A stretch of 64,000 bases of DNA, taken from the NCBI RefSeq assembly GCF_009689585.1, contig NZ_AP018694.1, forward strand, positions 4,703,501 through 4,767,500, given 5' to 3'. The position numbers were made by a program, and so were the translations under genes. Under the pieces are notes generated by a model. It saw only the letters and a list, made by a program, of their open reading frames with translations. It was not told the origin of the DNA and did not search any database. Positions 12,586 to 38,441 of the stretch are shown here, in pieces. Source of the stretch: Aquipluma nitroreducens. GTDB lineage: Bacteria; Bacteroidota; Bacteroidia; Bacteroidales; Prolixibacteraceae. Numbering within the stretch: position 1 is the first letter of the stretch; every line of letters starts with the position of its first letter.

Positions 12586-12607
12586 TTTTCAAGAAGCATA
12601 TCAAAGC

Positions 12608-12650
12608 AAACTCCTGTAAATGCCACATTTACAGGAGTTTTTTATTTTTA
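12608..12650 (+). terminator. ssrA terminator
   Basis: A perfect 14-bp stem (12608-12621 with 12627-12640, loop GCCAC) is followed by a T-rich tail. Confidence 0.9.
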
Positions 12651-12824
12651 GCTCCTGCAAATAAATGCAAAAAAAAGCATATGCAAAGGGGGCAAAGAGG
12701 GGGCAGCACCTTTTCACTCAATTGCCCCCTTTTAAGAGCGCATTTCTTTAATATGCAGTACTTTGCGTTTCGGGTTCTTCCATTGCTAAAATACTTTTAC
12801 AAACAAAAATTAAATTTATTTGCA

Positions 12825-13634: not shown

Positions 13635-13772
13635 TGGATTTGCCGGTTAAATTGACCAGTCCGCGCCGTTTTATATTGACCACCTTTCGCCGGAGTAAAT
13701 TGACCACCTATTTTCAATATTGAGAACGATCATTTCCTTGTTTTGATTAGAGTTATACAAAATTAGATTTAT

Positions 13773-21829: not shown

Positions 21830-21930
21830 AGAAATAAGTGACCTTTTTAGGTTGTCATCTTACTTCTACTTGTTGACGTGTTGTTTCTAAATCTAGTCAT
21901 AGAGTTAATGATGAGCTTATAGGTGATAGA

Positions 21931-21995
21931 ACCGATATTGATTGAATATGTGTTAATTAACCGATAAATACTATTTATAGATGTTATTACCGATA
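21931..21995 (+). promoter_or_regulatory. Three ACCGATA iterons with exact 29-bp spacing
   Basis: ACCGATA occurs at 21931-21937, 21960-21966 and 21989-21995, so start-to-start spacing is 29 bp twice. They fill the gap between hsdR and the cyclase-like gene, ending 32 bp before its ATG. Even spacing suggests binding of an oligomeric protein. The adjacent gene product has a C-terminal HTH-like segment and is the obvious candidate. No consensus promoter was found beside them. Confidence 0.5.
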
Positions 21996-22027
21996 GAAGT
22001 ATTACATTTACTTCAAAATATACTCAT

Positions 22028-22720: not shown

Positions 22721-22721
22721 C

Positions 22722-23444: not shown

Positions 23445-23445
23445 C

Positions 23446-25041: not shown

Positions 25042-25043
25042 AT

Positions 25044-26885
25044 ATGAAATTCAGAAAATACAAATTGGAAGATGTTTGCAACATTCAAATTGGCAAAACA
25101 CCTCGAAGAGAAGTCAAAGAATATTGGGGAAAGGGTTATAGCTGGGTAAGTATTTCTGATCTGAAGTCGAGGATAATAACTACTACCAAAGAAGAAATAA
25201 CAGAATCAGCGATTAAAGAATGTGGCTGCAAACTTATTCCAAAAGGAACCATCCTGATGAGTTTTAAGCTGAGCATTGGCAAACTTGCCTTTGCAGGAAA
25301 GGATTTATATACTAATGAAGCAATTGTTGGTTTAGAGATCAAGGATAAAAAGCTATTACATCCTGATTATTTGCTTTATGTGTTGAAAATTATCCCTTTA
25401 GTCGGTTCGAATAATGCTGCAATGGGCGCAACGCTGAACAAAGAATCTTTGAAAATATTGCAGCTTCCAATTCCGTCTCTCTCCGATCAACTCCACATTG
25501 CCAACCTTTTAAGCAAAGCCGAAAACCTGATAACCCAGCGCAAACAAAGCATTGCCTTGCTTGATGAGTTTTTGAAAAGCACGTTTTTGGAGATGTTTGG
25601 TGATCCTGTTAGGAATGAGAAAGGTTGGGGAAAAAATACCTTAAATACTGTTATAAACGGAATTGATAGCGGTTGGAGTCCTGTATGCCTAAATAAACCA
25701 AGAAACAATGAATCAGAATGGGCAATTCTGAAACTTAGTGCTGTTACATATAGGAAATTTAATCCTCTTGAAAATAAGCTTTTAGACCAAAGTATATCAA
25801 TTAAGAAAGGGATAGTCCCACAAAGTGGAGATTTACTTTTTTCAAGAAAAAACACTTATCAATTAGTTGGTGCAGCAGCATTTGTTTTTGAAGACCACAA
25901 GAGACTTTTATTACCTGATACTATTTTCAGAATTAATTATAAAAAAGATAAAATTGATGGACTTTATCTTTGGTTTCTGCTCAATGATTTTACATTTAGA
26001 AATGTAATTCAGTCACTTGCTTCTGGAGCATCTGGGTCAATGCCAAATATTTCAAAAGAGAAACTCAACAGACTAAAAATATCAATTCCACCCATCAAAC
26101 TCCAAACCCAATTCGCCCAAATCGTGGAAAAAACAGAAGCGCTCAAAGTGCAATATCAAAGCAGTTTGCAGGAGTTGGAGAATTTGTACGGCAGTTTAAG
26201 CCAGCGTGCGTTTCGGGGAGAATTAACCCTAAACCAGGCAGAACAACAGGTTTTAATGGCAGCAGAACCGGAGGCTAAATATGGGAAAGTGATTGAATTC
26301 ACACCAAAGAAATGTGACTCAACCGAAAGAGCTATTCTTGCCGGTCATATTATAAACAAGACGAATAAAGAGGATTTTGGCCGTGTTAAATTCCAAAAGC
26401 TTTTGCACCTGACAGAATACTTTTGCAAAATAGATATTGATTCCAACTTTTCGAAGAATGTAGCTGGTCCTCACGATAGGCTATTAATTAACGAAATTGA
26501 ATCCACATTAGAACGTTATCGGTTTTACGATATCAATCAATCTTGCAAAGGCAATCATAAAGTCAATTACAGGGCGCTGAGTTCGGTTGACGAACTGGAA
26601 GATATTTTTAACACCACTTTTGAATCGGAAAGAGAAAGAATTGATGCATTTCTGTCAAAGTTCAGGAAATCATCGTGGGAACAATGCGAAATTGTTTCAA
26701 CCCTTTATGCCGTTTGGAACAACAGACTGATTATGAATCAAGAAATTACAGACGACTTATTGAAACAGGACTTCCTGAATTGGGATGTTCAGAAAATAAA
26801 ATACCTGGATCGAATGGATGGCGCACTGCAATGGATGAAAGATAAGGGAGTAGTTCCCGACGGTTGGGGTAAGCTGATTGAATAG
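25044..26885 (+). CDS. hsdS: Type I specificity subunit HsdS with an extra C-terminal SocA/Panacea-like domain
   Basis: Residues 1-405 are a standard HsdS: two target recognition domains (KYKLEDVCNIQIGKTPRREV and NTVINGIDSGWSP), each followed by a coiled-coil spacer (LSKAENLITQRKQ and QIVEKTEALKVQYQSSLQELE). Residues 425-613 are an addition. Its FGRVKFQKLLHLTEYFC and later NVAGPHDRLLINEIESTL resemble the K-x-Q-K-L-L-Y ... G-P pattern of the SocA/DUF4065 (Panacea) fold used in proteolysis-linked antitoxins. The HsdS part chooses the DNA site; the added domain may bind a partner or regulate restriction. The domain match is by eye. Confidence 0.88.
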   Translation: MKFRKYKLEDVCNIQIGKTPRREVKEYWGKGYSWVSISDLKSRIITTTKEEITESAIKECGCKLIPKGTILMSFKLSIGKLAFAGKDLYTNEAIVGLEIKDKKLLHPDYLLYVLKIIPLVGSNNAAMGATLNKESLKILQLPIPSLSDQLHIANLLSKAENLITQRKQSIALLDEFLKSTFLEMFGDPVRNEKGWGKNTLNTVINGIDSGWSPVCLNKPRNNESEWAILKLSAVTYRKFNPLENKLLDQSISIKKGIVPQSGDLLFSRKNTYQLVGAAAFVFEDHKRLLLPDTIFRINYKKDKIDGLYLWFLLNDFTFRNVIQSLASGASGSMPNISKEKLNRLKISIPPIKLQTQFAQIVEKTEALKVQYQSSLQELENLYGSLSQRAFRGELTLNQAEQQVLMAAEPEAKYGKVIEFTPKKCDSTERAILAGHIINKTNKEDFGRVKFQKLLHLTEYFCKIDIDSNFSKNVAGPHDRLLINEIESTLERYRFYDINQSCKGNHKVNYRALSSVDELEDIFNTTFESERERIDAFLSKFRKSSWEQCEIVSTLYAVWNNRLIMNQEITDDLLKQDFLNWDVQKIKYLDRMDGALQWMKDKGVVPDGWGKLIE

Positions 26886-26908: not shown

Positions 26909-27403
26909 ATGTCGAACCATTGGAAACAACAAGGCATACCACACAAGGGTTGGCAATTGCAGGATGTAATTGATGTGAGGGAAGATGGTCAAACCGAATG
27001 GGAAACGAATTATGAAACCTGCATGATGTGCGGGAACGAGAAAATCAGATACGTTCATGTTGTATATCATCGTGAAATTAACGAAGAATATCGGGTAGGT
27101 TGTGTTTGTGCTGAAAAGATGACCAATGATTATGTGAATCCAAAGCTAAGAGAAAAAGAACTACGAAACCGAACAAATAGGCGGATCAACTGGACTAAAA
27201 AACCTTGGAAGGTCAATAAAAACGGGAACTTTTATTTGAAGTTTGAAGAACATCTTCTCCTGATCTACCGTGATAAGAAAACTCAAAAATTCAAGGCTAA
27301 AATCGGAGAAACTTTTGGTGCCAAATCTTTCGACACCGTCGAGAGAGCAAAAGTTGCTGTTTTTAATGGGATCGAATATTTCAAAAACAAAGGACAATGG
27401 TGA
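26909..27403 (+). CDS. Putative zinc-binding protein at the end of the RM locus
   Basis: This 164-residue protein has Cys pairs CMMCG (about residue 37) and GCVCAEKM (about residue 64), spaced like a zinc ribbon, then a basic middle (REKELRNRTNRRINWTKKPW) and a beta-rich C-terminus. It begins 24 bp after hsdS in the same direction, so it may share the transcript. I do not recognise a named family. Binding of nucleic acid is a reasonable inference from the zinc-ribbon and basic residues. Confidence 0.7.
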   Translation: MSNHWKQQGIPHKGWQLQDVIDVREDGQTEWETNYETCMMCGNEKIRYVHVVYHREINEEYRVGCVCAEKMTNDYVNPKLREKELRNRTNRRINWTKKPWKVNKNGNFYLKFEEHLLLIYRDKKTQKFKAKIGETFGAKSFDTVERAKVAVFNGIEYFKNKGQW

Positions 27404-27453
27404 ATTACCGCAACAAGTTCCGGAAAACATTGAGTCAATTTTTTAATTAGTGT

Positions 27454-27484
27454 AAAAAAACAGCCCCACCGCAAGAGCAGGGCT
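27454..27484 (-). terminator. Terminator of the minus-strand 60-residue gene
   Basis: Read on the minus strand, AGCCC (27484-27480) pairs with GGGCT (27466-27462) and is followed by seven T (27460-27454). Confidence 0.65.
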
Positions 27485-27508
27485 ATAAAGCAATTTTGGG
27501 AAATTCTA

Positions 27509-27691
27509 TTACTTTTCCCTGCGCACACCTTTGTGAGGCTGTCCCTTTTGGTTCACATCAATAAACTGCCCAGTGTTGGAGTCACGTTTCACCCACTGTT
27601 CGGTTTTAGGATTGAAAACCTGCGAACGTTCCTTAACAGCACCATTGCGTTGGCCGTCTTCGTTTATTCCATTTTCTTGCCATGGGTTCAA
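27509..27691 (-). CDS. Small conserved protein of about 60 residues
   Basis: The product is short, hydrophilic and repetitive in style: KERSQVFNPKTEQWVKRDS followed by TGQFIDVNQKGQPHKGVRREK. I know this NPKT-x-x-WVKR ... F-x-DV ... KGVR pattern from widespread small bacterial proteins of unknown function. The start used is a TTG at 27691; an ATG at 27683 is in another frame and would read MARKWNKRRR, so the exact N-terminus is unsure. A minus-strand terminator follows. Confidence 0.6.
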   Translation of the reverse strand: MNPWQENGINEDGQRNGAVKERSQVFNPKTEQWVKRDSNTGQFIDVNQKGQPHKGVRREK

Positions 27692-27732
27692 ATTTTTGGT
27701 TCAAAAACTATTTAACACTATATATAGCGTAC

Positions 27733-28017
27733 TACTCTCACTCAATTCCTCACCAAAGTTATTTACGCATTCCGGAAAAGTCAAGGGTGGCTTCGGTAAT
27801 CCTTTTCCCTTCGATATGCCTATCGGCTACTCAGGGAACGGATCACCTCGCCACACTTCGTGCTCGGTCAAAAACCGAACGCTCTTCGACTGTTTCACGC
27901 TCAGGGATCGTTCGGTTTTGTGACATTCGCCCTTGACTAGAATCCGGTCTGCTCAATGGTTCACGGTTCAAAATTAACCGGCGAGCCAGAAGCCAAAATA
28001 AGTCTTCAGGGCAGGAG
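27733..28017 (+). promoter_or_regulatory. Structured leader, family A copy 1
   Basis: This 285-bp non-coding module is shared with 32877-33125 and 34455-34706. It begins TACTCTCACTCAATT, has CATTCCGGAAAAGTCAAGGG, a long inner hairpin (GTCAAAAACCGAACG with CGTTCGGTTTTGTGAC), an outer pair GTCAAGGG/CCCTTGAC, then CCGGT...ACCGG, and ends in a small hairpin CTTC-AGGGCA-GGAG (28004-28017) 9 nt before the ATG at 28027. Confidence 0.8.
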
Positions 28018-28026
28018 CAAAATCAA

Positions 28027-28461
28027 ATGAAAGATTCAAATGGATGGAAAATTGTTTCCACGTATTCAACCAAACAAGCTGTTGATGACGGGTTTCTTGT
28101 AAAGGTTGATAGTGAAGCCTCGAAGGAAGCAGGAATTAAGTTTCCGGTTTACCTGACTCGTGCTGCATGGGACAAGTACGTTGAAGTTCCGAAAGGTATG
28201 GAGCAGGTTCAAAACCTTTCAGGACGCCTTTGGGACGTGATGTTCATGTTTGCTTTTCAAGCCCGGAAAGTTTCTTCCAACTTTTTACAGTTTGATTTTA
28301 TCAGCTTTTTGCCTGATGAAGGTAATTGGGAACCCAATGAAAAGCTTGAATCTCCCGAAAATCGACTCAACAGACTGGTTACCCTCAAAGCCGTGATTCA
28401 GGCACAGGATTTCGACGATCCGTCACCGGCTATTTTCATTATGAAGCCAAACGAAGACTGA
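28027..28461 (+). CDS. DUF6573-like mobile-element protein
   Basis: This 144-residue protein reads STYSTKQAVDDGFLVKVD, then AGIKFPVYLTRAAWDKYVEVP and SGRLWDVMFMF. The Y-T/S-x-x-A-x-x-DG-x-LVDV, P-V-x-LTRA-W and GRLWDV order matches DUF6573 proteins, found on plasmids and conjugative elements. The function is unknown. It is headed by a family A leader and is followed after 2 bp by another small gene, so it opens a short operon ending at the 28841 terminator. Confidence 0.78.
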   Translation: MKDSNGWKIVSTYSTKQAVDDGFLVKVDSEASKEAGIKFPVYLTRAAWDKYVEVPKGMEQVQNLSGRLWDVMFMFAFQARKVSSNFLQFDFISFLPDEGNWEPNEKLESPENRLNRLVTLKAVIQAQDFDDPSPAIFIMKPNED

Positions 28462-28463
28462 TT

Positions 28464-28733
28464 ATGGCAACAAACAAATCTTCAGAAAACTTCCTCCAAT
28501 CGGGGGAAGTTTCTTTTAAGGGCTTTATTGCTGGCCTTGCTGAATCGAAAGATAAGTACAACCGGCACAAAAGTATGATACTGTATGGTTCCACATTTAT
28601 TATTTCAGCATATCGAACCGGCGAAAAGCTTTTAGTGAAACAGGAGTTCAATATTGACGAACTTACTAAAGCCAGAAAGTTTTACCGGTCTATCCGCTTT
28701 TTTAAGACACATTCATCCTGGTTACAGGAATAA
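28464..28733 (+). CDS. Hypothetical mobile-element protein (89 residues)
   Basis: The protein starts MATNKSSENFLQSGEVSFKG and ends KARKFYRSIRFFKTHSSWLQE; it is basic with no membrane segment. It sits 2 bp after the DUF6573-like gene and 11 bp before the next small ORF. I do not recognise a family. The tight spacing supports it as a real gene of the leader-headed unit. Confidence 0.65.
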   Translation: MATNKSSENFLQSGEVSFKGFIAGLAESKDKYNRHKSMILYGSTFIISAYRTGEKLLVKQEFNIDELTKARKFYRSIRFFKTHSSWLQE

Positions 28734-28744
28734 ATATCAGAATT

Positions 28745-28843
28745 ATGGAAAAACACTGGACAGCTTATCTGCCGGAAGCCGGTAGGATAAAAAGAAAAGG
28801 CGATGATTTCATGTTCTTTTTACGAATTCCTCATATGATCTAA
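28745..28843 (+). CDS. Possible 32-residue small protein
   Basis: The frame MEKHWTAYLPEAGRIKRKGD then DFMFFLRIPHMI runs from an ATG 11 bp after the upstream gene to a TAA embedded in the terminator stem. The close spacing argues that it is translated. No family recognised. Confidence 0.5.
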   Translation: MEKHWTAYLPEAGRIKRKGDDFMFFLRIPHMI

Positions 28844-28872
28844 GCCCTGTGGTTTATCCACAGGGCTTATTT
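28841..28872. terminator. Bidirectional terminator
   Basis: A perfect 12-bp stem (28841-28852 with 28858-28869, loop TTTAT) has T on one side and A-rich flank on the other, between convergent genes. Confidence 0.88.
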
Positions 28873-29372
28873 TAAGTTCAATTACTTTACTTTCGACAAT
28901 TCCGCAATTTTATCATTAAGAATCTTACACCACTTTTCTGATAATTGAACTTCACCGGTTAAAGTTAAACGGTCATAATCAGCATTATAAAACTCAACTT
29001 TAGTGTCGGGTTTGTTTTTATCAGGATTGACAAATGACAATTCAATCTTATCAACAACTTTTAAGCTGCCTTCTTTCGTACTAACGGACCTACTGGATTC
29101 AATTACACGGCATTTCAGAATATCTGCAAGATCTATTTGTTGAGATGATTCAATGCTATTTACATTACTTACTACAAATACAATATTGGCCACTTCGTCA
29201 ATTCCTATAAATGAATTGTTTAAGCGCTCATACTTTGAAATCTTACAATTATTTTTTCCTGCCAGCTCGAAAAGTGGTTGTAAGAGTTGTGCTTCTTTTT
29301 GTTTTTTCTTTCTGCTCTGTAATACAAAAAGTACGATACAGAAAAGTATTATGGCTATTGTAATTATTGTTG

Positions 29373-30580
29373 CTTAGTACATGACAAAAACATAAACAAT
29401 TGATTATCAACAAAATAAGCATTAAAATATTTGCATAAAACCCTGAATATCATTATCTTACAAGGGATTACCACATCACTTAGTAAGAAATATGACACCC
29501 AGGGTAGATGCTAAAAGTAGTGAATTAGTTTCCATTTTCCATAAGCAATCAGGTTGGAATCTGGCACGAGTAAAGTTCTTTGTTTTCATGATCAGTGCAC
29601 TATGTAAGGTGCAAACAGTTGGTTTTGAGAAGTTGGCTACAGCTTTTGACAGTAATGCCAGTACCAGTTCCTCTCTGAGGAGAATACAGCGGTTTATGTC
29701 TGAATATCTACTTGATACAGATTTGATCGCCAAATTAATATTCAGACTATTACCTCATGAACCACCTTTCCGTCTGGCAATGGATAGGACAAATTGGAAG
29801 TTTGGACAGCAGAATATCAATGTATTGGTAATTGCAGTTGTTTATCATGGAGTTGCTTTTCCGCTGTTGTTTAAGTTGTTGCCCAAGTTTGGTAATTCAA
29901 ACACCAATGAACGCATTGAATTGATTGAACGGTTTATCCGTCTTTTTGGATCTGCTTCGTTGGATTGTTTGACCGCAGATCGGGAGTTTGTTGGAGAACG
30001 ATGGATCAAGTATCTGAATGAGAACCGGATTCGTTACTATATCCGCATCCGCGAAAACTTTTGGGTTTTGCAACCTCACAATGGCAAACGAGTTAAAGCC
30101 AGTTGGCTGTTTGCCGATTTGCCGCTAAATGGTTGCCGAGTGAACCACCGTATTATTTATCTGAACGATCAACTGTGTTATCTGTCAGCCTCTAAAGTAA
30201 AGAACAAAGATGGAAAGCCTGAATTGCAGATTGTTATCTCATTCAACAAGCCAGAAGATGCACTTTGTATTTACAAAGAACGATGGCAGATTGAAACTGC
30301 TTTTAGAGCTTTAAAAACAAGTGGCTTTAATATTGAAGATACACACTTGACTGAAATTGGAAGAATTGAAAAACTGTTTGCATTGGTGATAGTAGCTTTT
30401 ACATGGGCATACCTTGTCGGTGATTATTTGCACAGATACATCAAACCAATCCCGATCAAGAAACATGGAAACAAAACTAAAAGTCTATTCAAATATGGTC
30501 TAACATATATTGCAACTGTTCTTTTAAACGCTTTCTTTCAAGATGATATCGATATTTTTAAATTTTTGTCATGTACTTAG
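29373..30580 (+). mobile_element. IS4-family insertion sequence with target duplication
   Basis: The ends are CTTAGTACATGACAAAAA (29373-29390) and, on the other strand, CTAAGTACATGACAAAAA (30580-30563): 18 bp with one mismatch. TTATTGTTG is repeated directly outside them (29364-29372 and 30581-30589). One transposase gene fills the element. It interrupts a minus-strand gene near its start. Confidence 0.92.
29492..30580 (+). CDS. IS4-family transposase
   Basis: This 362-residue DDE transposase has LAMDRTNWKFG (first D), CLTADREFVGERW (second D) and YKERWQIETAFRALKTSG, the Y-(2)-R-(3)-E-(6)-K signature of IS4. The stop codon TAG lies inside the right terminal inverted repeat. The first 110 residues form the N-terminal DNA-binding part. 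It appears intact. Confidence 0.95.
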   Translation: MTPRVDAKSSELVSIFHKQSGWNLARVKFFVFMISALCKVQTVGFEKLATAFDSNASTSSSLRRIQRFMSEYLLDTDLIAKLIFRLLPHEPPFRLAMDRTNWKFGQQNINVLVIAVVYHGVAFPLLFKLLPKFGNSNTNERIELIERFIRLFGSASLDCLTADREFVGERWIKYLNENRIRYYIRIRENFWVLQPHNGKRVKASWLFADLPLNGCRVNHRIIYLNDQLCYLSASKVKNKDGKPELQIVISFNKPEDALCIYKERWQIETAFRALKTSGFNIEDTHLTEIGRIEKLFALVIVAFTWAYLVGDYLHRYIKPIPIKKHGNKTKSLFKYGLTYIATVLLNAFFQDDIDIFKFLSCT

Positions 30581-30704
30581 TTATTGTTGTTAAGTCCATT
30601 TTTAGATGTATTAATATGATTTATAATAGAAGTTCAGTCATTGATATAGCTGAACAACCTGTAAAAATAAAATTGTTGGGATATATTGAAGGCTTAAAAA
30701 TGGA

Positions 30705-31073
30705 TCACCAGAAGTAATGGAAAGGGAAAATAATATCGGTTTTTTTGAACCGAACTACTATATTTTCCGAATAAAAAAAGTATGTAGAGTATGAATTACG
30801 AAGCAAATGAATCGCTGCTAAAGAAAAAGCTGAAAACTGGTTGAAAGAGTTTTTAAGGCTGGTACGAGATATGTTATTATGTAAGCTAACGGAACTTTCG
30901 GATTGTTCAGTATGGCAAAATAAGTTGGAAGAAACTATCGAAGAACGGTATTCGGAATCGGAGTTCTTTGAGTAATCTGTATAATTCACAGCATTTCCGC
31001 TGTAAAAGCTTATGCTTAAGCAATACAGTGCTAAAATGGTAAGAAATCCAGTTATTTTTAATAGCTTTTTCAC
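30705..31073 (-). CDS. Small secreted or periplasmic protein ending IIFPFHYFW
   Basis: From a GTG at 31073 the 122-residue product has a clear signal peptide (MKKLLKITGFLTILALYCLSISFYSG region), then a Ser/Asn-rich part with FCHTEQSESSVSLHNN, and the conserved tail KKTDIIFPFHYFW. I recognise this tail from Bacteroidetes proteins of unknown function that often lie beside metal-efflux or TolC-type genes; no such gene is adjacent here. The GTG start places the signal peptide at the very N-terminus. Confidence 0.65.
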   Translation of the reverse strand: MKKLLKITGFLTILALYCLSISFYSGNAVNYTDYSKNSDSEYRSSIVSSNLFCHTEQSESSVSLHNNISRTSLKNSFNQFSAFSLAAIHLLRNSYSTYFFYSENIVVRFKKTDIIFPFHYFW

Positions 31074-31824
31074 ATCACAAAGGTATAATTTTTAGATGAC
31101 TACTACCGACCATCCAAGCATCACTCTAATTTCCCTAATATCTGATTTGATCCGTCTTTTAGACATTTTAGTTGAATTTCACAAAGCTACCTGCATGTGT
31201 GATAGAAGGGTAGGCTCCTTGCCTGCGGCCAGTAGCTTTCCACCGTCCATGGTTCACAAGCTCACGCTCCACTTCGTCCCACCTTATTTGCTCTCCGGCC
31301 ACTGTCATCCACCAGCCTCGGCACCCCGCGCATGAGTGGCTGCTTCCATTTTATTTCATCTACCACACTCGCTTTAGCCTTTCCCACACGAAACAGAAAG
31401 TGTGACATAAACCAATCCCCAAAAGTGGAACCCGTTTCTATTATGAAGGCGGTTTTTACTTCCCAATGATAAGCCTTTGGGCTTTTGAGTTTAGAAAGTC
31501 AATTTCCATTTCGCCATTCTTTATATTCTCTTTAGGCATTTTTTTACAGTCTGTGCCATGCAATCTTTATTAAACTTGGGTATTGTCAGTTGAATTGCCG
31601 AATTAGTGCAATTCATAGGCCCTCAGAAACCGGTATTAAATCTGTTCGAGGAATTGCATCGCTTAGCTTCCGATAAAAACTTCCGGGTTCAAGCCTAAAC
31701 TTTCGCATGCCTTTCCGGTAATGGCTTTTCGGGTCAAGCAGGTCATAACTAATTTTTAAGGTCAGTTAGATTTATCTGCAAAGGTTGGACACGTTTTTGT
31801 CGTTCGGTCCCCTCAATCAAGGAT
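31074..31824. other. Non-coding stretch before the SSB-tailed gene
   Basis: About 750 bp without a convincing gene. A 79-codon frame at 31096-31335 is rich in Pro, Ser and His and is not family-like. The segment 31200-31400 is richer in G+C than its surroundings and resembles the variable parts of the family A leaders in style (CCACTTCGTCC, CTCACGCTCC), but I could not align it as a full copy. Confidence 0.45.
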
Positions 31825-31942
31825 TTTCCCGGCATATCCTTGTTCTAATTCTCACCCGGTTGGTGAGCCTGTCGAACCACGGTATTCCAGTTCCTCCATG
31901 ATTGCGCCAAAATCCGCGTCCTGTTCACCTGGCATATAATTT
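31825..31942 (+). promoter_or_regulatory. Structured leader, family C copy 1
   Basis: Shared with 32485-32584: both have TTTCCnGGCATATCCT, then a strong hairpin (here CTCACC-CGGTT-GGTGAG), then CGGTATTCC, GTTCCT and GGCATATAATTT. The start codon of the SSB-tailed gene follows after about 20 nt. Confidence 0.65.
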
Positions 31943-31962
31943 TAACTTTAAAAATTTACGTT

Positions 31963-32271
31963 ATGACAACTTTTGAAAAACATTACATTGGAAAAGGAAC
32001 TCAAGTAGCAGATCTTAACATCGTTAAAGTAGTTCTACCAGTTGAAGGAATCGAAGCAGCAATATTCGAAAAGGAAGGAATCAAATACATTGGTTTCGAA
32101 GTGGCTAAAATGAAAACTCCTGACAAATTCGGCAGAACACACACCTGCTACTACCAAACCAAAGTTTACACCGAAGATGCACCTGCTGCACAGCCAGAAA
32201 AGCAAAAAAAGGCAAAGAAAGCTTCTAAGAAAGAACCAGCGGTGCCAGAAGAGGATGATCTGCCGTTCTAA
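31963..32271 (+). CDS. Small protein with an SSB-type acidic C-terminal tip
   Basis: This 102-residue protein has a compact N-terminal domain of about 70 residues (EKHYIGKGTQVADLNIVKVV ...), a Lys/Ala-rich linker (QKKAKKASKKEPA) and ends EEDDLPF. The DDLPF tip matches the C-terminal peptide of single-stranded DNA-binding proteins, which recruits repair and replication enzymes. The N-terminus does not look like a standard OB fold by eye. A role on incoming single-stranded DNA of the element is a fair inference. Confidence 0.75.
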   Translation: MTTFEKHYIGKGTQVADLNIVKVVLPVEGIEAAIFEKEGIKYIGFEVAKMKTPDKFGRTHTCYYQTKVYTEDAPAAQPEKQKKAKKASKKEPAVPEEDDLPF

Positions 32272-32278
32272 AACTTTC

Positions 32279-32300
32279 AAAAAAGCCGAAAGGCTTTTTT
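32279..32300 (+). terminator. Terminator after the SSB-tailed gene
   Basis: AAAAAAGCC-GAAA-GGCTTTTTT, a 9-bp stem ending in T. Confidence 0.85.
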
Positions 32301-32484
32301 GTTGGTCACTCAACAAATGGGACTTTATTTGAAATTCCAGATTCAAACTTACCACAATACCCCAAACGACTGATTCCAATAATTTTTTTAGCTGATCAGG
32401 TAAGAATTTCATTGCTTGTTTTTATGAAATTATACGCGAAGATGTAGGGCCAATTCGGAACTGCTTCGCAGGCTACACAAAGAA

Positions 32485-32584
32485 TTTCCGGCATATCCTA
32501 CCCCCGAATGCTCGGGGGCTTAACGGTATTCCGTTCCTGTTTGTGTATTCCGAAGTGGTCCCAACGGCGAAAGGCATATAATTT
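32485..32584 (+). promoter_or_regulatory. Structured leader, family C copy 2
   Basis: It repeats the landmarks of the copy at 31825. Its hairpin is CCCCCGA-ATGC-TCGGGGG, different in sequence but equal in position, so structure is kept. TTCGGAA...TACACAAA upstream also pairs with TTTGTGTATTCCGAA downstream. The next ATG is at 32599. Confidence 0.65.
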
Positions 32585-32598
32585 CTAAAAACTATCGC

Positions 32599-32769
32599 AT
32601 GAAAACTTACACTTCAAAATCAGCCAAAGACAATCAGGATAACAGTTCAGTTTGGGAAGCATTTACGGAGTATTTAAATTCAGTTTATTTCGAAGGTGCA
32701 ACAGAAACCCTTGAAGAAGAACTAGTAAAATTTGAATATGCAGTTTATTTAAGTTGTTACGGGAATTAA
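32599..32769 (+). CDS. Small acidic protein (56 residues)
   Basis: The frame MKTYTSKSAKDNQDNSSVWE continues with AFTEYLNSVYFEGATETLEE and ends YAVYLSCYGN. It is acidic and mostly helical. It is headed by a family C leader and followed by a terminator 28 bp after the stop, which supports expression. No family recognised. Confidence 0.7.
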   Translation: MKTYTSKSAKDNQDNSSVWEAFTEYLNSVYFEGATETLEEELVKFEYAVYLSCYGN

Positions 32770-32796
32770 CCGTAACAACTTAACTGAATAATCCCC

Positions 32797-32819
32797 AGAG
32801 GCGAAAGCCTCTTTTTTAT
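32797..32819 (+). terminator. Terminator after the 56-residue gene
   Basis: AGAGGC-GAAA-GCCTCT followed by TTTTTT. Confidence 0.88.
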
Positions 32820-32876
32820 GCCCAATTAATTGCTAGTCAACTATAACAAATCAATTGTCATTAATTAGAGGAGGTG

Positions 32877-33125
32877 TACTCTCACTCAATTGTTGAGCAA
32901 AGTTATTTTCGCATCCCGGAAAAGTCAAGGGTGGCATTTCCTCTCACTATTCCCATCTAAGCCACACTTCGTGCTCGGTCAATAACCGAACGCCCTTCAA
33001 CTGTTTCACGCTCAGGGAACGTTCTGTTTTATGACATTCGCCCTTGACTAGAATCCGGTCTGCTCAATGGTTCACGGCTCAAAATTAATTGGAGAGCCAG
33101 CCCAAATAAATCCGCAGGGCAGCGG
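32877..33125 (+). promoter_or_regulatory. Structured leader, family A copy 2
   Basis: It has the same landmarks as 27733-28017, with GTCAAGGG/CCCTTGAC outer arms and an AACCGAACG/CGTTCTGTT inner stem. The terminal hairpin CCGC-AGGGCA-GCGG (33112-33125) lies 8 nt before the ATG at 33134. Confidence 0.8.
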
Positions 33126-33133
33126 TAAATCAG

Positions 33134-33619
33134 ATGTTGAAGTTTTTTGAAAATGTGACAACGCTAAACGAACTTCGGAAAGAGTACCGGAGATTGGCAT
33201 TTATCTACCATCCAGACAAAGGTGGTGACACTGTGCTGATGCAGATTCTGAACGACAGGTACGAACGCCTATCTGAAAAGTTTATTAAAGAAAATGTAGA
33301 TTTTTCAGAAGGACGTAAGGAATATGAGATGCAGGTTTCCGAAGAAATCCGGGATATGTTAGACCGCATCATGTTTCTCAAAGGTGTGGATATTGAAGTT
33401 ATTGGCGGATGGATCTGGATTACCGGAAATACGTTTGCCATCAGGACAACATTGAAAAGCCTGGGATTCTTGTTCAGCCATCCGAAAACAGCGTGGTACT
33501 GGCACAAAGGTGAATATCGAAAGAAAAGCGGAAAGATTCAATCCATGGATGAAATGAGAGATTTCTGGGGTTCTCAGAAGATGGAAACTCAACCCGAAAC
33601 ATCGAATCAATTAAATTAA
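33134..33619 (+). CDS. J-domain protein
   Basis: This 161-residue protein opens with a short J domain: LNELRKEYRRLAFIYHPDKGGDTVLMQILNDRYE in parts, with the HPD tripeptide at residues 29-31. The rest (GVDIEVIGGWIWITGNTFAI, then HPKTAWYWHKGEYRKKSGK) is a small beta-rich domain common to element-borne J proteins. HPD stimulates the ATPase of a DnaK chaperone. What it delivers to DnaK is unknown. It is headed by a family A leader. Confidence 0.85.
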   Translation: MLKFFENVTTLNELRKEYRRLAFIYHPDKGGDTVLMQILNDRYERLSEKFIKENVDFSEGRKEYEMQVSEEIRDMLDRIMFLKGVDIEVIGGWIWITGNTFAIRTTLKSLGFLFSHPKTAWYWHKGEYRKKSGKIQSMDEMRDFWGSQKMETQPETSNQLN

Positions 33620-33626
33620 TCAACAG

Positions 33627-33687
33627 GGCGTGCCAGACCATACCTGAGTTTACCAAAGGTTGCCCAAATAAGTCCGCAGGGCAGCGG
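33627..33687 (+). promoter_or_regulatory. Short leader, family B copy 1
   Basis: GGCGTGCCAGACCA, CCTGAGTT and TGCCCAAATAAGT are followed by hairpin CCGC-AGGGCA-GCGG (33674-33687), 8 nt before the ATG at 33696. It shares the 3' hairpin with family A. Confidence 0.75.
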
Positions 33688-33695
33688 CATTTCAC

Positions 33696-33890
33696 ATGAA
33701 TATAGAATTAGATATTGCAACAATCGATAGGCTTCTCAATGCCATCATGTTCTGTTTAGGTCCTTCATTAGACGACAACAGCATCCGGGAATCACCTTGG
33801 TTACTTGAACTGGCCGAGTCTTACAACGAAATCGTTGCTCAGTTGCCAGTCGGATGGAGATTAGATCATCATCAGCTTATCCATTTTTAA
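33696..33890 (+). CDS. Hypothetical mobile-element protein (64 residues)
   Basis: The product reads MNIELDIATIDRLLNAIMFC, then SPWLLELAESYNEIVAQLPVGW, and is acidic and helical. It has its own short leader on each side and no recognised family. Position between two leaders with matching spacing supports it as a real gene. Confidence 0.65.
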   Translation: MNIELDIATIDRLLNAIMFCLGPSLDDNSIRESPWLLELAESYNEIVAQLPVGWRLDHHQLIHF

Positions 33891-33897
33891 TTCACAC

Positions 33898-33958
33898 GGC
33901 GCGCCAGACCAGCCCTGAGTTAATCGAAGGGTGCCAATATAAGTCCGCAGGGCAGCGG
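33898..33958 (+). promoter_or_regulatory. Short leader, family B copy 2
   Basis: It aligns over its length with 33627-33687: GGCGCGCCAGACCA, CCTGAGTT, TGCCAATATAAGT, then CCGC-AGGGCA-GCGG (33945-33958), 8 nt before the ATG at 33967. Confidence 0.75.
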
Positions 33959-33966
33959 CAATACCT

Positions 33967-34374
33967 ATGGATTATTTAGTAGTTGGTTCAAACGGTTTTG
34001 CACAAGTTGGTGATCTGGATTATTTTACCAAAGCGAAAATCGAACTTCGAGTTTTACTTGATTTTTTGCAAAGAAATTATCCTGTTCCTGATGAATTTGC
34101 CTCAAAAGCCTATTACTACATCAAAGCTTTCAACCATGATTTTGGAACCTACCATGAAGTTGTTGTCATCTTCGATGATCAATATCTTTCCGCTCTGGAG
34201 GATTCCGGACTTGAACCAGATACGGAGTTGTTTGGTAAGTTCTGGAACTGGTTTAATTCGGTTGAGTTCGTTGATTTGGAATCGGAAGAGCTGACCGGGC
34301 AAATACGGCATGCTTACCTGAATACTCTGGACATTGAAAAAGGTGATCATCTGAAAGTTATTCGTGTAGCCTGA
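33967..34374 (+). CDS. Hypothetical mobile-element protein (135 residues)
   Basis: This acidic protein reads MDYLVVGSNGFAQVGDLDYF and later HEVVVIFDDQYLSALEDSGL and KFWNWFNSVEFVDLESEEL. Its low pI and leading-region position would suit a DNA-mimic or antirestriction protein, but I see no ArdA/KlcA motif, so this is speculation. It is headed by a family B leader and followed by a terminator. Confidence 0.65.
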   Translation: MDYLVVGSNGFAQVGDLDYFTKAKIELRVLLDFLQRNYPVPDEFASKAYYYIKAFNHDFGTYHEVVVIFDDQYLSALEDSGLEPDTELFGKFWNWFNSVEFVDLESEELTGQIRHAYLNTLDIEKGDHLKVIRVA

Positions 34375-34378
34375 ATTT

Positions 34379-34405
34379 CAAAAAAGGGTGAAAAACCCTT
34401 TTTTT
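34379..34405 (+). terminator. Terminator after the 135-residue gene
   Basis: AAAAAAGGG (34380-34388) pairs with CCCTTTTTT (34396-34404), continuing in T. Confidence 0.85.
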
Positions 34406-34454
34406 TTCGTTCATGGGTTTTCGCCAGTTCCGTAATGCTGTTTTTTAAGTTTTT

Positions 34455-34706
34455 TACTCTCACTCAATTTTAGCGCAAAGTTATTTACGCATTCCGGAAA
34501 AGTCAAGGGTGGCTTTTCCCTCCTCACTTTCCACCAGCGCCACGCTTCGCGCTTGGTCAAAAACCTAACGCCCCTCGACTGTTTCACACTCAGGGGACGT
34601 AAGGTTTTATGACATTCGCCCTTGACAAGAATCCGGTCTGCTCAATGGTATTCGGCTCAAAATTAACCGGCGAGCCAGAAGCCAAAATAAGTCCGCAGGG
34701 CAGCGG
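34455..34706 (+). promoter_or_regulatory. Structured leader, family A copy 3
   Basis: It has the family A landmarks, with inner stem variants (AACCTAACGCCCCT and AGGGGACGTAAGGTT) and outer GTCAAGGG/CCCTTGAC. Terminal hairpin CCGC-AGGGCA-GCGG (34693-34706) ends 9 nt before the ATG at 34716. Confidence 0.8.
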
Positions 34707-34715
34707 TCAAGAACA

Positions 34716-35165
34716 ATGAAAACGTATAAGAAAATTCTTCCATTAATCACTTTGAAGAAAACCAAGTCAGATTTTCCATGTGCAAAGATTGTAACATCAG
34801 CCGATGCTAATGAATTCATCCGCAATTTTTACTCGGATGATATTGGAATCTTTGAAAGTTTTTTCATCCTGTTGCTCAACCGAAACAATACAACTATTGG
34901 ATATGCCAAGATTTCACAAGGTGGAATTATTGGAACTGTTATCGATGCCACCATTATTGCTAAGTACTGCGTTGAAGCTTTGGCAAAATCAGTAATCCTT
35001 GCTCACAATCATCCTTCCGGCGGACTTGTTCCCAGTCAGGCAGATAAAGATATCACACGGAAAATAACAGATACCCTAAAGATTTTCGATTGCACAGTTC
35101 TTGACCATGTTATCCTTACGGAAGAGTCTTACTTCTCCTTTGCCGATGATGGATTGATGTATTAA
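34716..35165 (+). CDS. RadC-like JAB/MPN-domain protein
   Basis: This 149-residue protein contains the RadC core: ILAHNHPSGGLVPSQADKDI (H-x-H-P-S-G ... S ... D) with TVLDHVILTEESYFSFADDG. The N-terminal helix-hairpin-helix of chromosomal RadC is missing, as in the short RadC versions carried by mobile elements. The JAMM residues are intact, so metal-dependent hydrolysis is possible, but the reaction is not known. It is headed by a family A leader and followed by a terminator. Confidence 0.9.
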   Translation: MKTYKKILPLITLKKTKSDFPCAKIVTSADANEFIRNFYSDDIGIFESFFILLLNRNNTTIGYAKISQGGIIGTVIDATIIAKYCVEALAKSVILAHNHPSGGLVPSQADKDITRKITDTLKIFDCTVLDHVILTEESYFSFADDGLMY

Positions 35166-35169
35166 AATG

Positions 35170-35190
35170 AGCCCTTCGGGGCTTTTTTTT
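35170..35190 (+). terminator. Terminator after the RadC-like gene
   Basis: AGCCC-TTCG-GGGCT followed by a run of T. Confidence 0.88.
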
Positions 35191-35191
35191 A

Positions 35192-35482
35192 TCATTTGCC
35201 ATTGCCCAGCATATTCAGCTTTTCGCTTAATTCAATAAGTCCGGCTTTCTGTAAGCAGTCGCTGGCCATTGCCCTCAGTTCTTTCAAATTCTCTTCAGGA
35301 ACATTGTTCAGAAGGTTGGATGATTTATCATCATCCTTTGCTGTCAGCCCCCGCTCAATAACACTATTGAGCAGTAATACATTTTTACGCGACATTTTCA
35401 AATCAATCTTCACCGTTTCATTCATGCCAGGGATACTCAAAATGGTATCATAAACCTTGGCCACATCATTTGTTGTCAGCAT
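35192..35482 (-). CDS. Hypothetical mobile-element protein (96-104 residues)
   Basis: From the ATG at 35482 the product reads MLTTNDVAKVYDTILSIPGM and later RKNVLLLNSVIERGL and LRAMASDCLQKAGLIELSEKL; it is helical and soluble. A start at 35506 would add eight residues (MSNFKRVI). It is convergent with the RadC gene and divergent from the primase gene. No family recognised, though the setting (next to the element primase) suggests replication or transfer control. Confidence 0.6.
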   Translation of the reverse strand: MLTTNDVAKVYDTILSIPGMNETVKIDLKMSRKNVLLLNSVIERGLTAKDDDKSSNLLNNVPEENLKELRAMASDCLQKAGLIELSEKLNMLGNGK

Positions 35483-35616
35483 AATTACACGTTTAAAATT
35501 AGACAAAATTTACGCTGTAAAAGTAATGAGCCATTTTCAAACCATCCCAGTCAAAATATAGTGAGGATAGGTAAAGCCCATACCGCTTATTTACCTTCGT
35601 ATCATTGAACTGAATA

Positions 35617-36540
35617 GTGAACTTGAAAATGTGCGGTATGGATTTCAGGAATCAAGTGCTTTCCATTAGCGAAGCAAAAGAAATGGACATGGTAAATTAC
35701 CTGTCCGCATTGGGCCACGAGCCAGCAAAGATCAGGAACAATGACTATTGGTATTTATCTCCACTTCGGGAAGAAAAAACACCATCATTTAAGGTAAACA
35801 GGAAGCTTAACCGGTGGTACGATCATGGTCTGGGCAGAGGGGGTAACCTGATTGATTTCGGTATAGAATATCACCATTGTACTTTTGGCGAATTGCTTAA
35901 CAAACTAAGTGGTAATCTTTCTTTTCAAAAGCCACATGCCCAGATGGTGAAAAGTGTGTATGAGCAGGAGCCTAAGATTAAAGTTTTGAGCGATTTTGAA
36001 CTCACTTCATATGCCTTATTAGGGTACCTGGAACAAAGACATATCCCAATAGAAATTGCCCAAAAGTATTGTCGTGAAATTCGTTATGAATTGAACGGTA
36101 AAACCTACTACGGCATCGGTTTTAAAAATGATTCAGGAGGATGGGAAATTCGCAATCCTTACTTCAAAGCAAGCAGTTCGCCAAAGGATATCACCACCTT
36201 AAAAAATGGTTCGGATGAGGCAGTCGTATTTGAAGGTTTTACCGATTTTTTATCCTTCCAGTTTCTCCAAAAAAACCTTCCTGAAAACAGTCAGGATTTT
36301 GTGGTTTTAAATTCGGTTTCCTTTTTTGAAAGAGCACGATTATTTATGGAACAACACCAGTTGATTCGACTTTACCTGGACAGGGATGCTGCCGGACTAA
36401 AATACTGTCGGCGCGCACTTTCAATGAGTACTAAATATACCGATGAAAGCAAGCTATACAAAAAACATAAAGACCTTAATGACTGGATTGTAAATTTTGA
36501 CAAGTTGCAGAAAATGCGATTAAGGCAAAAGTTAAGATAG
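35617..36540 (+). CDS. Primase-like protein with a Toprim domain
   Basis: This 307-residue protein has an N-terminal region laid out like a CHC2 primase finger (NNDYWYLSPLREEKTPSFKVNR, then YDHGLGRGGNLIDF) but without the Cys residues. A Toprim domain follows: EAVVFEGFTDFLSF (Glu) and RLYLDRDAAGLKYC (D-x-D). It could make primers for the element's single strand after transfer. The frame opens at a GTG (35617); ATGs at 35629 and 35638 are close alternatives. It lies just before the oriT-like region. Confidence 0.88.
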   Translation: MNLKMCGMDFRNQVLSISEAKEMDMVNYLSALGHEPAKIRNNDYWYLSPLREEKTPSFKVNRKLNRWYDHGLGRGGNLIDFGIEYHHCTFGELLNKLSGNLSFQKPHAQMVKSVYEQEPKIKVLSDFELTSYALLGYLEQRHIPIEIAQKYCREIRYELNGKTYYGIGFKNDSGGWEIRNPYFKASSSPKDITTLKNGSDEAVVFEGFTDFLSFQFLQKNLPENSQDFVVLNSVSFFERARLFMEQHQLIRLYLDRDAAGLKYCRRALSMSTKYTDESKLYKKHKDLNDWIVNFDKLQKMRLRQKLR

Positions 36541-36646
36541 TTCTGAAATTTAATTGAATCAATCTGGAAGTGCCTGAAAGCGGTAAAAGACATTTATAGG
36601 TCTGACAGACGTTCGAAGGGCTGGGAGATTGCCACGTTCCTGCAAT

Positions 36647-36685
36647 CGGCAAGATGTCCGTTTGTCCGACAAACGAATCTTGCCG
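36647..36685. other. oriT-like nested hairpin upstream of the mobilisation genes
   Basis: CGGCAAGAT (36647-36655) pairs with ATCTTGCCG (36677-36685), and inside it GTTTGTC/GACAAAC (36660-36666, 36668-36674) forms a second stem. A third pair CCCAC/GTGGG follows at about 36687-36708. It lies in the 219-bp gap before mobC, the usual oriT place for this type of module. The nick site cannot be read. Confidence 0.55.
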
Positions 36686-36759
36686 CCCCACACTCGGAAC
36701 TCGTGGGCGGGGGACACTGATAAGATCAGATGAGTTTGAAAACGATAAAATGAGAAGAG

Positions 36760-37149
36760 ATGGGAAGAGAAAATTCAAACAGGACACGAAAAATCAGCCT
36801 ACGGTTAACTACTGCTGAATACTTGAAAGTTGAACGAAAATGGAAGACCAGCACTTGTCGAAAGTTAAGCGATTATGTGCGGCATAACCTTTTTGATAAA
36901 CCAGTAACCAGTTATTACCGGAACCAATCTTTGGATGATTTTATGGAAGAAATGATACTCCTCAGAAATGAGCTGAACCACATCGGGAACAACTTCAACC
37001 AGACAGTAAAACGACTGCAAACACTTAGCCAGATTGCTGAATTCAGAAGCTGGCTGATCGCTTATGAGGTTGAGAAAAAGACACTCTTTAACAAGGTGGA
37101 CGAGATCAAAAAGCATATTCAAAAAATAGCTGAATCATGGTTACAGTAA
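36760..37149 (+). CDS. MobC-like relaxosome accessory protein
   Basis: This 129-residue basic protein starts with a ribbon-helix-helix segment (RTRKISLRLTTAEYLKVERK) and continues with LRNELNHIGNNFNQTVKRL, the conserved core of bacterial mobilisation proteins of the MobC type. Such proteins bind oriT and open it for the relaxase. Its stop overlaps the relaxase start by 13 bp, so the two are made together. Confidence 0.88.
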   Translation: MGRENSNRTRKISLRLTTAEYLKVERKWKTSTCRKLSDYVRHNLFDKPVTSYYRNQSLDDFMEEMILLRNELNHIGNNFNQTVKRLQTLSQIAEFRSWLIAYEVEKKTLFNKVDEIKKHIQKIAESWLQ

Positions 37150-38441
37150 TCAAAACAGGAAACTCCATTCACCGTATTTTTAACTACAATGAGAATAAGG
37201 TAAAAGAAGGAGTGGCGGAGTGCATTGGGGCCGAAAATTATCCAATTGATGCGAATAAAATGAACCTTTCGATGAGGCTGAATCGTTTCCTGAAACAGAT
37301 TGAACTCAACGAAAATGTAAAGCGTAACAGCGTGCATATTTCTCTGAATTTTCATCCTTCAGAAAGCCATTTGTCCAAAGAGAAATTACTTGAAATCGCA
37401 GCGACTTATATGTATAAGATCGGCTTCGGGAAACAACCGTACATGGTATACCAGCACCATGATGCAGCGCATCCGCATATCCACATAGTATCCATTAAAG
37501 TGCGTCCGGATGGCAGCCGGATTGATATGAACAACATTGGCCGCAACCAATCGGAACAGGCACGAAAAGCCATCGAAAAGGAGTTCGGACTAGTCAGTGC
37601 TGAAGCACAGAAAAAACAGGAACAATATCGCTTAAACCCAGTATCCGCGGCAAAGGTGTTGTACGGTAAGACGCAAACCAAAATGGCCATACAAAATGTA
37701 TTGGAGGCGGTGTTAAACCAGTACCGCTATACCAGCCTTCCTGAGTTAAATGCAGTACTCAGACAATACAACGTAATTGCAGAAAGGGGCAACCAAGATT
37801 CGAAGGTTTATCAGCACAAAGGTTTGCTGTACCGGATACTGGATGCTGACGGAAATCCAGTTGGTGTGCCGATCAAAGCGAGCCTGTTTTATAACGATTC
37901 AACACTTAAATTTTTGGAAGAGAAGTTTAAGGAAAATGAAGCAAAGCGGATACCTCACAAGTTACGGGTTAAGAATGCCATTGATATGTTCTTAACGGGA
38001 AAAAAAGCAACACTTCAGGATTTGATAAAAGCATTGGAAAAGCAGGGTATTCATGTCGCCCTGCGCCAAAATGATACCGGTTTGATGTACGGTATCACTT
38101 ATGTGGATCACCAGACCAAATGCGTGTTCAACGGGAGTGTATTGGGCAAACAATACAGTGCAAAAGCCATTCAAGAACGTTGCCAGCATAAAGCAGTACC
38201 TGAACAGAAGTTGCCTCCGCATTCAGCCCAGGAACCAACTGGGTTACAGCCTCAGGCTACCGCCGTTGAGGCAGAAACCAAAGCGTATCCAAATGCTATG
38301 CAGATGACCGGACCTTTCAAAGAAATTGAAAATTTGTTGGATACTCTGATACAAACGGAACATACATCGAATTATCTGCCTTACCAATTAAAAAGGAAAA
38401 GGAGAAAAAGGAAAAGAAAAAACCTGAATAACAATCAATAG
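37137..38441 (+). CDS. Relaxase / mobilisation nuclease (MOBP type)
   Basis: This 434-residue protein has an N-terminal relaxase domain with the three-His motif in YQHHDAAHPHIHIVSIKVRPDG and an upstream NSVHISLNFHPSE segment; a candidate catalytic Tyr lies near the N-terminus. Relaxases cut one strand at oriT and stay bound to its 5' end during transfer. The C-terminus ends in a strongly basic tail (KRKRRKRKRKN). It overlaps mobC and precedes the coupling protein. Confidence 0.93.
   Translation: MVTVIKTGNSIHRIFNYNENKVKEGVAECIGAENYPIDANKMNLSMRLNRFLKQIELNENVKRNSVHISLNFHPSESHLSKEKLLEIAATYMYKIGFGKQPYMVYQHHDAAHPHIHIVSIKVRPDGSRIDMNNIGRNQSEQARKAIEKEFGLVSAEAQKKQEQYRLNPVSAAKVLYGKTQTKMAIQNVLEAVLNQYRYTSLPELNAVLRQYNVIAERGNQDSKVYQHKGLLYRILDADGNPVGVPIKASLFYNDSTLKFLEEKFKENEAKRIPHKLRVKNAIDMFLTGKKATLQDLIKALEKQGIHVALRQNDTGLMYGITYVDHQTKCVFNGSVLGKQYSAKAIQERCQHKAVPEQKLPPHSAQEPTGLQPQATAVEAETKAYPNAMQMTGPFKEIENLLDTLIQTEHTSNYLPYQLKRKRRKRKRKNLNNNQ

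Follow-up and report, generated by a model that had tools for sequence, protein, structure and literature searches.

A stretch of 64,000 nucleotides (nt) from Aquipluma nitroreducens (Bacteroidota; Prolixibacteraceae) was analysed (contig NZ_AP018694.1, forward-strand positions 4,703,501 to 4,767,500; hereafter the window). It contains an island with transfer genes, in which five plus-strand genes are preceded by repeated non-coding modules. Three long modules (27733, 32877 and 34455 of the window) and two short ones (33627 and 33898) were found where an initial annotation had placed them. The long modules form repeat family D1 (three copies of 224 nt, two of them matching the reference copy at 68 and 84%), family D2 has five copies of 37 nt (four of them matching at 65-86%), and family D4 consists of the two short copies. 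As first described, all five modules finish in a 4-base-pair (bp) stem with loop AGGGCA followed by an ATG, with 9, 8, 8, 8 and 9 nt between stem and ATG in modules 1 to 5. The stem is CCGC/GCGG in four modules and CTTC/GGAG in module 1, and the nested arms GTCAAGGG/CCCTTGAC were found in all three long copies. The bare string AGGGCA-N8..16-ATG occurs 6 times in the window against 4.27 expected, which is not above chance; the case rests on the stem, its flanks and its recurrence elsewhere. Three features were added to the earlier description: an extra purine-pyrimidine pair across a bulged T, a promoter in the long copies, and a leader hairpin (A) between that promoter and the final hairpin (B).

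A long module consists of two separable parts, a minus-strand promoter hairpin (5') and an mRNA leader (3'). The putative single-strand promoter hairpin of module 1 spans 27754..27958 on the minus strand (arms 27754-27787 and 27930-27958), with the -7 box as the reverse complement of 27754-27761 (TAACTTTG) and a -33 TTG in the reverse complement of the GTCAAGGG arm. Leader hairpins A (27965..27987, GGTTC/GAGCC) and B (28002..28018, CTTC/GGAG with an outer G-C across the bulged T, loop AGGGCA) follow on the plus strand, ahead of the ATG at 28027 of a DUF6573 protein gene (28027..28461, plus; PF20213, E 2.2e-15). Module 2 has its putative minus-strand promoter hairpin at 32898..33069 (arms 32898-32931 and 33041-33069; -7 box, reverse complement of 32898-32905), with hairpin A at 33076..33098 (plus, GGCTC/GAGCC) and hairpin B at 33110..33126 (plus), before a DnaJ-like gene (33134..33619, plus; E 2.1e-5, below the Pfam cut-off with 25 of 27.8 bits). 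In module 5 the corresponding features are 34476..34647 on the minus strand (arms 34476-34509 and 34619-34647; -7 box, reverse complement of 34476-34483), hairpin A at 34654..34676 (plus, GGCTC/GAGCC) and hairpin B at 34691..34707 (plus, outer pair G.T), and the gene, starting at 34716, encodes a RadC-like JAB domain protein (34716..35165, plus; PF04002, E 2e-31). The short modules carry the leader part only, that is, hairpin B without the promoter hairpin (33672..33688 and 33943..33959, plus), before operon-internal genes of 64 amino acids (aa) (33696..33890, plus) and 135 aa (33967..34374, plus), neither with a Pfam or NCBIfam match.

Promoter consensus on the minus strand

Relatives were collected in two scans with patterns from one arm, the -7 motif and the leader being excluded from the patterns. 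Across all loci this gave 129 distinct hits, and the second arm was found by pattern in 102 and was absent in 27; the 102 long modules are all distinct over the compared stretch. Inspected by eye, the 27 one-arm hits comprised 16 that were apparently unrelated, one ending at the edge of its stretch (L050), three resembling true modules missed by the pattern (L044, L049 and L104) and seven resembling truncated modules (L036, L060, L061, L072, L076, L087 and L113).

The 5' arm of the module reads CAAAGTTATT..CGC.T..CGGAA..GTCAAGGG on the plus strand and, on the minus strand, CCCTTGAC, a spacer and TAACTTTG. The minus-strand 3' arm of the hairpin holds TT[G/T]-N20/21-TAnnTTYG. TAnnTT[TC][GA] was present on the minus strand in 101 of the 102 long modules (TAnnTTTG in 80; the sole exception was TTCCTTTG), and the spacing from TT[GT] to TA was 20 or 21 nt in 101 and 19 nt in one. 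The two n positions of the -7 box vary most within it (0.97 and 1.18 bits, the other six positions 1.31-2.00), and conservation falls directly after the G, with 0.05-0.27 bits at the four positions beyond. The Bacteroidota consensus is -33 TTTG and -7 TAnnTTTG (PMC7366714), and the minus-strand boxes, with TTG or TTT at -33, fit it. The string itself is not rare, since TTK-N19..21-TAnnTTYG occurs 22 times in the window on both strands; the weight lies on its placement and conservation. TAnnTTYG was rarer than expected on the plus strand (5 of 102 modules, against 17.0 in letter shuffles).

Fold and covariation of the promoter hairpin

With DNA parameters, the long hairpin formed in most of the printed minus-strand folds. 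Mean pairing over the 102 modules was 0.83 in the -33 arm and 0.64 in the spacer, and 0.26, 0.08 and 0.14 at the T, A and n of the -7 box. Longer flanks (100 modules) lowered the values and left the shape of the profile unchanged, with 0.61-0.78 at -26 to -19, 0.06-0.12 at +1 to +5 and 0.27-0.40 at +7 to +17. A second duplex below this bubble was clear in L013, L015, L016 and L023 among 12 printed folds. The match between the flap and its own leader was 7.78, compared with a mean of 6.49 for flaps re-dealt among modules (highest of 30 rounds 6.69; 99 modules) and 5.69 for letter-shuffled leaders.

The initial annotation had noted that stem bases change together, and strong covariation was observed in the promoter hairpin as well as in hairpin B. 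In the promoter hairpin, two-sided change was seen in 11 of 20 pairs across 93 model matches (89 of them distinct) drawn from several genera. There were 110 two-sided cells, where shuffles gave 31.5 and slid versions no more than 25, and all five measures were reached in 0 of 500 shuffles, in an alignment that is fitted to the structure. The first 18 sequences are nearly invariant (two-sided change in 1 of 20 pairs). After removal of duplicates and of one poor match on the opposite strand, the 88 remaining rows of the model alignment gave, read on the plus strand, 54 A.C and 9 G.T wobble cells, with 152 other mismatches. An excess of A.C read on the plus strand means that the G.T pairs lie mostly on the minus strand.

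The leader hairpins

Hairpin B has five base pairs with a bulged U and the loop NRGGCA, and its gap to the ATG was 8 or 9 nt in 82 of the 85 long modules that have it. A collection by flanks and loop gave 136 strings, of which 118 had 4 of 4 pairs, 3 had three and 15 fewer; among the last, the context of L094 is right but its stem is broken, and the remainder are apparently unrelated. In the 120 strings kept, a set preselected for at least 3 of 4 pairs and including one look-alike from L143, 119 or 120 were paired at each of the five positions, and shuffles were lower at each. The outer purine-pyrimidine pair across the bulged base was G-C in 61 and A-T in 55. Compensatory change was two-sided in 5 of 5 pairs (38 sequences). 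Pairing, two-sided cells and covariation score were reached in 0 of 500 shuffles, two-sided pairs in 5 and pair types in 332, in a count that also took in three pseudoknot pairs. A pseudoknot of GCC with the GGC of loop B was considered and is unsupported: two of its three pairs are invariant and the third departs solely by unpaired cells.

On the plus strand, the stem of hairpin B showed 17 G.T wobbles versus 1 A.C. Hairpin A was matched in 75 of 96 distinct leaders, with 42 G.T, 1 A.C, 3 other mismatches and 392 standard pairs, a count that leans towards G.T because the patterns admit C/T changes and few others. By eye, the 21 unmatched leaders gave one A.C (L094); a search with looser anchors matched 2 of 96 leaders and was not usable. 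The G.T excess on the plus strand indicates that the leader folds as RNA, the opposite of the strand suggested for the promoter hairpin. The switch of strand falls between CTCAATG and hairpin A, and the transcription start is expected near it, about 11-15 nt after the T of the -7 box.

Genes behind the modules and direction relative to the oriT-like region

A readable frame lies behind 89 of the 102 long modules. Named from one representative each, the clusters were RadC and DUF6573 (20 each), ArdC with a zincin domain and a 120-aa family lacking a credible match (11 each), DnaJ-like (8), a small protein that weakly matches a zinc ribbon (6), N6-methylase (4), SymE-like (3) and a 96-aa family (3), with three singletons, one of them transposase-like by eye. 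Modules were found before start codons, and in mobile elements wherever their place was checked. All modules within a locus share one direction (76 loci, 17 with at least two modules, none mixed).

The window modules point, as initially reported, towards a region resembling an origin of transfer (oriT) and towards the relaxase gene. The oriT-like inverted-repeat region (36622..36728) stands before a mobC-like gene (36760-37149, plus) and was matched in eight places, the window included; the alignments show a conserved inverted repeat that is compatible with either nick strand. The relaxase gene (37137-38441, plus) matches Pfam Relaxase, and its nearest NCBIfam model is Bacteroid_MobB (301 bits, with 400 needed). 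Next to oriT lies a primase-like gene that matches CHC2 and Toprim. Nine strong mobC places (E below 1e-40) were found, two of which, on contigs of 3.3 and 3.6 kb, were left out of the module check. Modules lay within about 14 kb upstream at six (the window, 470-483 kb of the same genome and four contigs of related genomes), in all six cases pointing to mobC.

Relatives in other genomes

Further groups of modules in the same genome lie at 278-287, 480-483, 4,475-4,478 and 5,208-5,210 kb, together with one truncated relic (L012). The 20 matches of the hairpin-B model in this genome (E up to 0.1) all fall inside those four groups and the window. A promoter-model search found the promoter hairpin in 54 of 140 whole genomes of the family (this one included), in 10 of 23 genera. 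True modules were mostly in genome records titled Prolixibacteraceae, Sunxiuqinia, Mangrovibacterium and Mariniphaga, the last three of which we take to be Prolixibacteraceae genera; some module-bearing metagenome-assembled genomes are titled Odoribacter, Porphyromonadaceae, Bacteroidia or Bacteroidetes, and others are IMG/VR contigs. Most of the IMG/VR stretches found (L013-L037) carry modules, so that some of these records may be mobile elements other than phages.

Class-wide, the promoter-model search matched 2 of 395 genomes, this one and one weak match that we do not believe (L161), and the hairpin-B-model search 1 of 295, this one, under strict filters (9 and 22 candidates per genome, respectively) that can miss members. 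At positions 1500-1600 of L161, from a genome of another family, an inverted repeat surrounds GTCAAGGG/CCCTTGAC and the rest of the module is absent. Module 5 had no match among the PLSDB plasmids. No Rfam (release 15) model matched 27300-36800 at E values up to 5, and at gathering scores the tmRNA was the sole match in the remainder of the window.

The surrounding island

A tmRNA gene followed by an integrase-like frame lies at 12188-13655; the frame has arm and SAM-like domain matches and no catalytic-domain match. The tmRNA site is perhaps the integration site of the island. The 12-nt repeat of the tmRNA end was not found at 40.3-42.2 kb of the window. The same island holds a type I restriction-modification system (18992-26885; HsdR, HsdM and HsdS matches). 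Between the genes of the first module and the rest is an insertion-sequence-like unit (29373-30580), whose DDE transposase gene (29492-30580) lies between 37-nt inverted ends (76%).

A second conserved leader type (CCCGGCATATCC ... GGTATTCCAG) was seen at 31760-31962 before a 102-aa protein ending in DDLPF, like the tails of single-stranded DNA-binding proteins (SSBs). It has relatives, and a similar leader precedes the next gene (32440-32598). This leader type may be another single-strand element; the minus-strand TAnnTTYG was not found in the 330 nt before the 102-aa protein in the window copy. Beyond the relaxase, 38473-40464 encodes a TraG-like coupling protein, and the genes examined after it, at 40931, 42579 and 46952, are non-transfer genes; the island may for this reason be mobilizable rather than self-transferring.

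Interpretation

Single-strand promoters and RNA elements had at first been offered as alternatives for the modules. Both are supported here, the promoter in the 5' half and the RNA in the 3' half. We consider it likely that the long module is a promoter that is active when the minus strand is single and folded. The best reading of the modules is that of promoters similar to the Frpo and ssi elements of conjugative plasmids, made for the Bacteroidota sigma factor and joined to an RNA element of translation. The reading draws on the repeats, the covariation, the promoter consensus with its spacing, the gene content and the shared direction; from these we infer that the minus strand is the transferred one, that transcription takes place on it while it is single, that the duplex is silent, and that hairpin B has a role in translation.

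In conjugation, the 5' end (oriT) of the minus strand would be the first part to reach the recipient, where the strand would fold into the long imperfect hairpin. The stem would provide the duplex form of the -33 box and of the 20-21 nt spacer for the primary sigma factor of Bacteroidota, while the -7 box TAnnTTYG, on the strand's own 3' arm, would stay unpaired; several copies could close a second duplex below it. RNA polymerase, with little melting required, would then transcribe the 5' arm in the direction of the gene and oriT. Synthesis of the complementary strand would leave this promoter facing away from the gene, and the genes would fall silent. The transcript would bear hairpins A and B. 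Hairpin B most likely serves as a protein-binding site (or a ribosome contact) by which translation of the gene set would be controlled jointly, as suggested by its place directly before the start codon and its repetition inside operons. A more specific form of this proposal, which we hold as tentative and slightly short of an even chance, is a pre-opened promoter. The duplex-bubble-duplex fold would place its bubble over the -7 box as in an open complex, strandedness alone would be the switch, and the transcripts would form an RNA regulon through the shared hairpin.

Several observations weigh against these proposals. In the best folds the -33 hairpin was missing from L010 5511 and the lower duplex from L010 5511, L011 6044 and L103. 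Module 1 of the window has a lower duplex of only 4 bp in its best fold, and the -7 box of module 5 pairs locally in one fold. Pair 24-257 of the promoter hairpin is unpaired in 39 of 89 sequences. Three pairs supply 36 of the 54 A.C cells, and the cells are not independent. A cruder count of wobbles in pairwise alignments of 97 modules showed no bias (17 plus, 21 minus); more weight was given to the model alignment, as any bias of a plus-strand model should be towards G.U on that strand. By test, 17 of the 102 long modules have no hairpin B. In several of these the module is cut by a contig end or the stem is displaced or broken, but L013, L015, L028, L031 and L064 lack it. Direction towards oriT is also imperfect elsewhere in the genome. 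Patterns found no modules in the 40 kb after the mobC at 227 kb (L147, L148), the nearest being about 50 kb away. The group at 278-287 kb has a relaxase about 50 kb ahead and another 15 kb behind, the 4,475 kb group sits between two relaxases, and the 5,208 kb group points away from the sole nearby relaxase (5,180 kb, 28 kb behind), with none ahead. An integration event could have separated such groups from their oriT. That the relaxase side enters last is itself borrowed from the statement that the relaxase is 'typically' in the lagging region (PMC11541004).

The confidences given to the different readings are not mutually exclusive. One alternative explains the whole long module as RNA, a structured 5' leader (riboswitch-like or protein-bound) whose transcription begins at a conventional promoter further upstream. 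In its favour, the covarying hairpins A and B have their wobble pairs on the plus strand, the short modules consist of leader elements alone, the large hairpin would form in RNA too, and the pairwise wobble count is neutral. The promoter hairpin, however, keeps a minus-strand sigma consensus at fixed spacing, its wobble in the model alignment favours the minus strand, and TAnnTTYG is depleted on the plus strand, so that we regard an explanation by RNA alone as unlikely. The folded minus strand might instead recruit RNA polymerase or primase mainly to prime the complementary strand, expression being secondary. This would be compatible with the promoter reading; the title of the Frpo paper, as cited in PMC11541004, names both transcription and primer synthesis, and the primase-like gene stands beside oriT. 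It leaves aside that elements have several modules, placed directly before start codons and mostly with a translation-type leader, and we judge it rather improbable as the main function.

A promoter acting in duplex DNA and directed upstream, for an antisense or divergent transcript, would also use the minus-strand boxes, for which TT[GT]-N20/21-TAnnTTYG is plausible; the hairpin would then be a terminator or a protein site. To the left of module 1, at 27517-27694 on the minus strand, a frame of about 60 codons (no ATG; TTG possible) faces such a promoter. Minus frames of at least 50 codons starting within 250 nt were found at 37 of 92 modules, against 21.0 expected from letter shuffles, an excess to which antisense frames of plus genes contribute. 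Both observations count against a promoter that works on the single strand only. Yet 55 of the 92 modules have no such frame, and the covarying second arm, the unpaired -7 box, the leader that follows and the constant place before plus-strand genes would go unexplained; this is, in our view, very unlikely as the full account. With the single-strand promoter retained as the preferred reading, the excess of frames on the left suggests that in some copies the same arm, facing away in duplex DNA, may additionally serve a divergent gene.

Comparison with known systems

The F plasmid elements Frpo1 and Frpo2 are needed for early expression in transconjugants (PMC9849209), and leading regions carry anti-defence genes, methylases and SSBs (PMC11541004). 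Like F Frpo1 and Frpo2 and the ssi of ColIb-P9, the modules are repeated non-coding hairpins before genes that would belong to a leading region (PMC9849209, PMC11541004). Promoter boxes rebuilt by a folded strand are also common to both, as suggested here by the fold, consensus and covariation, with minus taken as the transferred strand, and so are anti-defence genes and methylases located in these regions on the strand transferred first. The modules likely work like Frpo. They differ in that the boxes belong to a Bacteroidota sigma factor, that the -7 box is unpaired, and that a covarying RNA hairpin usually precedes the start codon. When compared with the pOX38 region before ssb, taken as Frpo2 from PMC9849209 and the only Frpo/ssi region compared, the best blastn match was 14 nt (E 0.14). 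As judged from sequence, the modules would thus be of the single-strand-promoter kind with a covarying RNA leader without an Rfam match, outside the sequence similarity of F Frpo2. Among the matches listed in a literature search with preprints outside its scope, no title or beginning of an abstract described such promoters in Bacteroidota, and the word 'bacteroid' has no occurrence in PMC11541004.

The STAXI motif (PMC2864571) is similarly a repeated structured element near anti-restriction and SSB genes, for which single-stranded DNA and RNA were both weighed by its authors. It is mainly a tandem pseudoknot and is listed for Enterobacteriales, whereas the pseudoknot test here gave only invariant letters. 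The radC RNA motif (RF01754) of the same paper is a structured candidate also named after radC, but it is listed there for Proteobacteria, and the window region gave no match to it at E values up to 5. Ordinary primary promoters of Bacteroidota have similar boxes (PMC7366714) and act as duplexes, while here an orientation towards the gene requires a folded single strand.

Significance

Single-strand promoters are known from enterobacterial plasmids. If the present reading is true, the principle evolved separately, or was rebuilt, to suit a sigma factor very unlike theirs. The pre-opened promoter, if true, would add a second layer of zygotic control above the Frpo principle, of a kind that we did not find described in the phylum. 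The unpaired -7 box is a concrete prediction on melting, and hairpin B is a candidate RNA operator common to many genes. A search rule for other elements of the phylum follows: plus-strand genes preceded by a covarying hairpin that carries TAnnTTYG at its base on the minus strand. The modules would, if they act as proposed, explain how mobile elements of Bacteroidota express anti-restriction genes before they are cut in the recipient.

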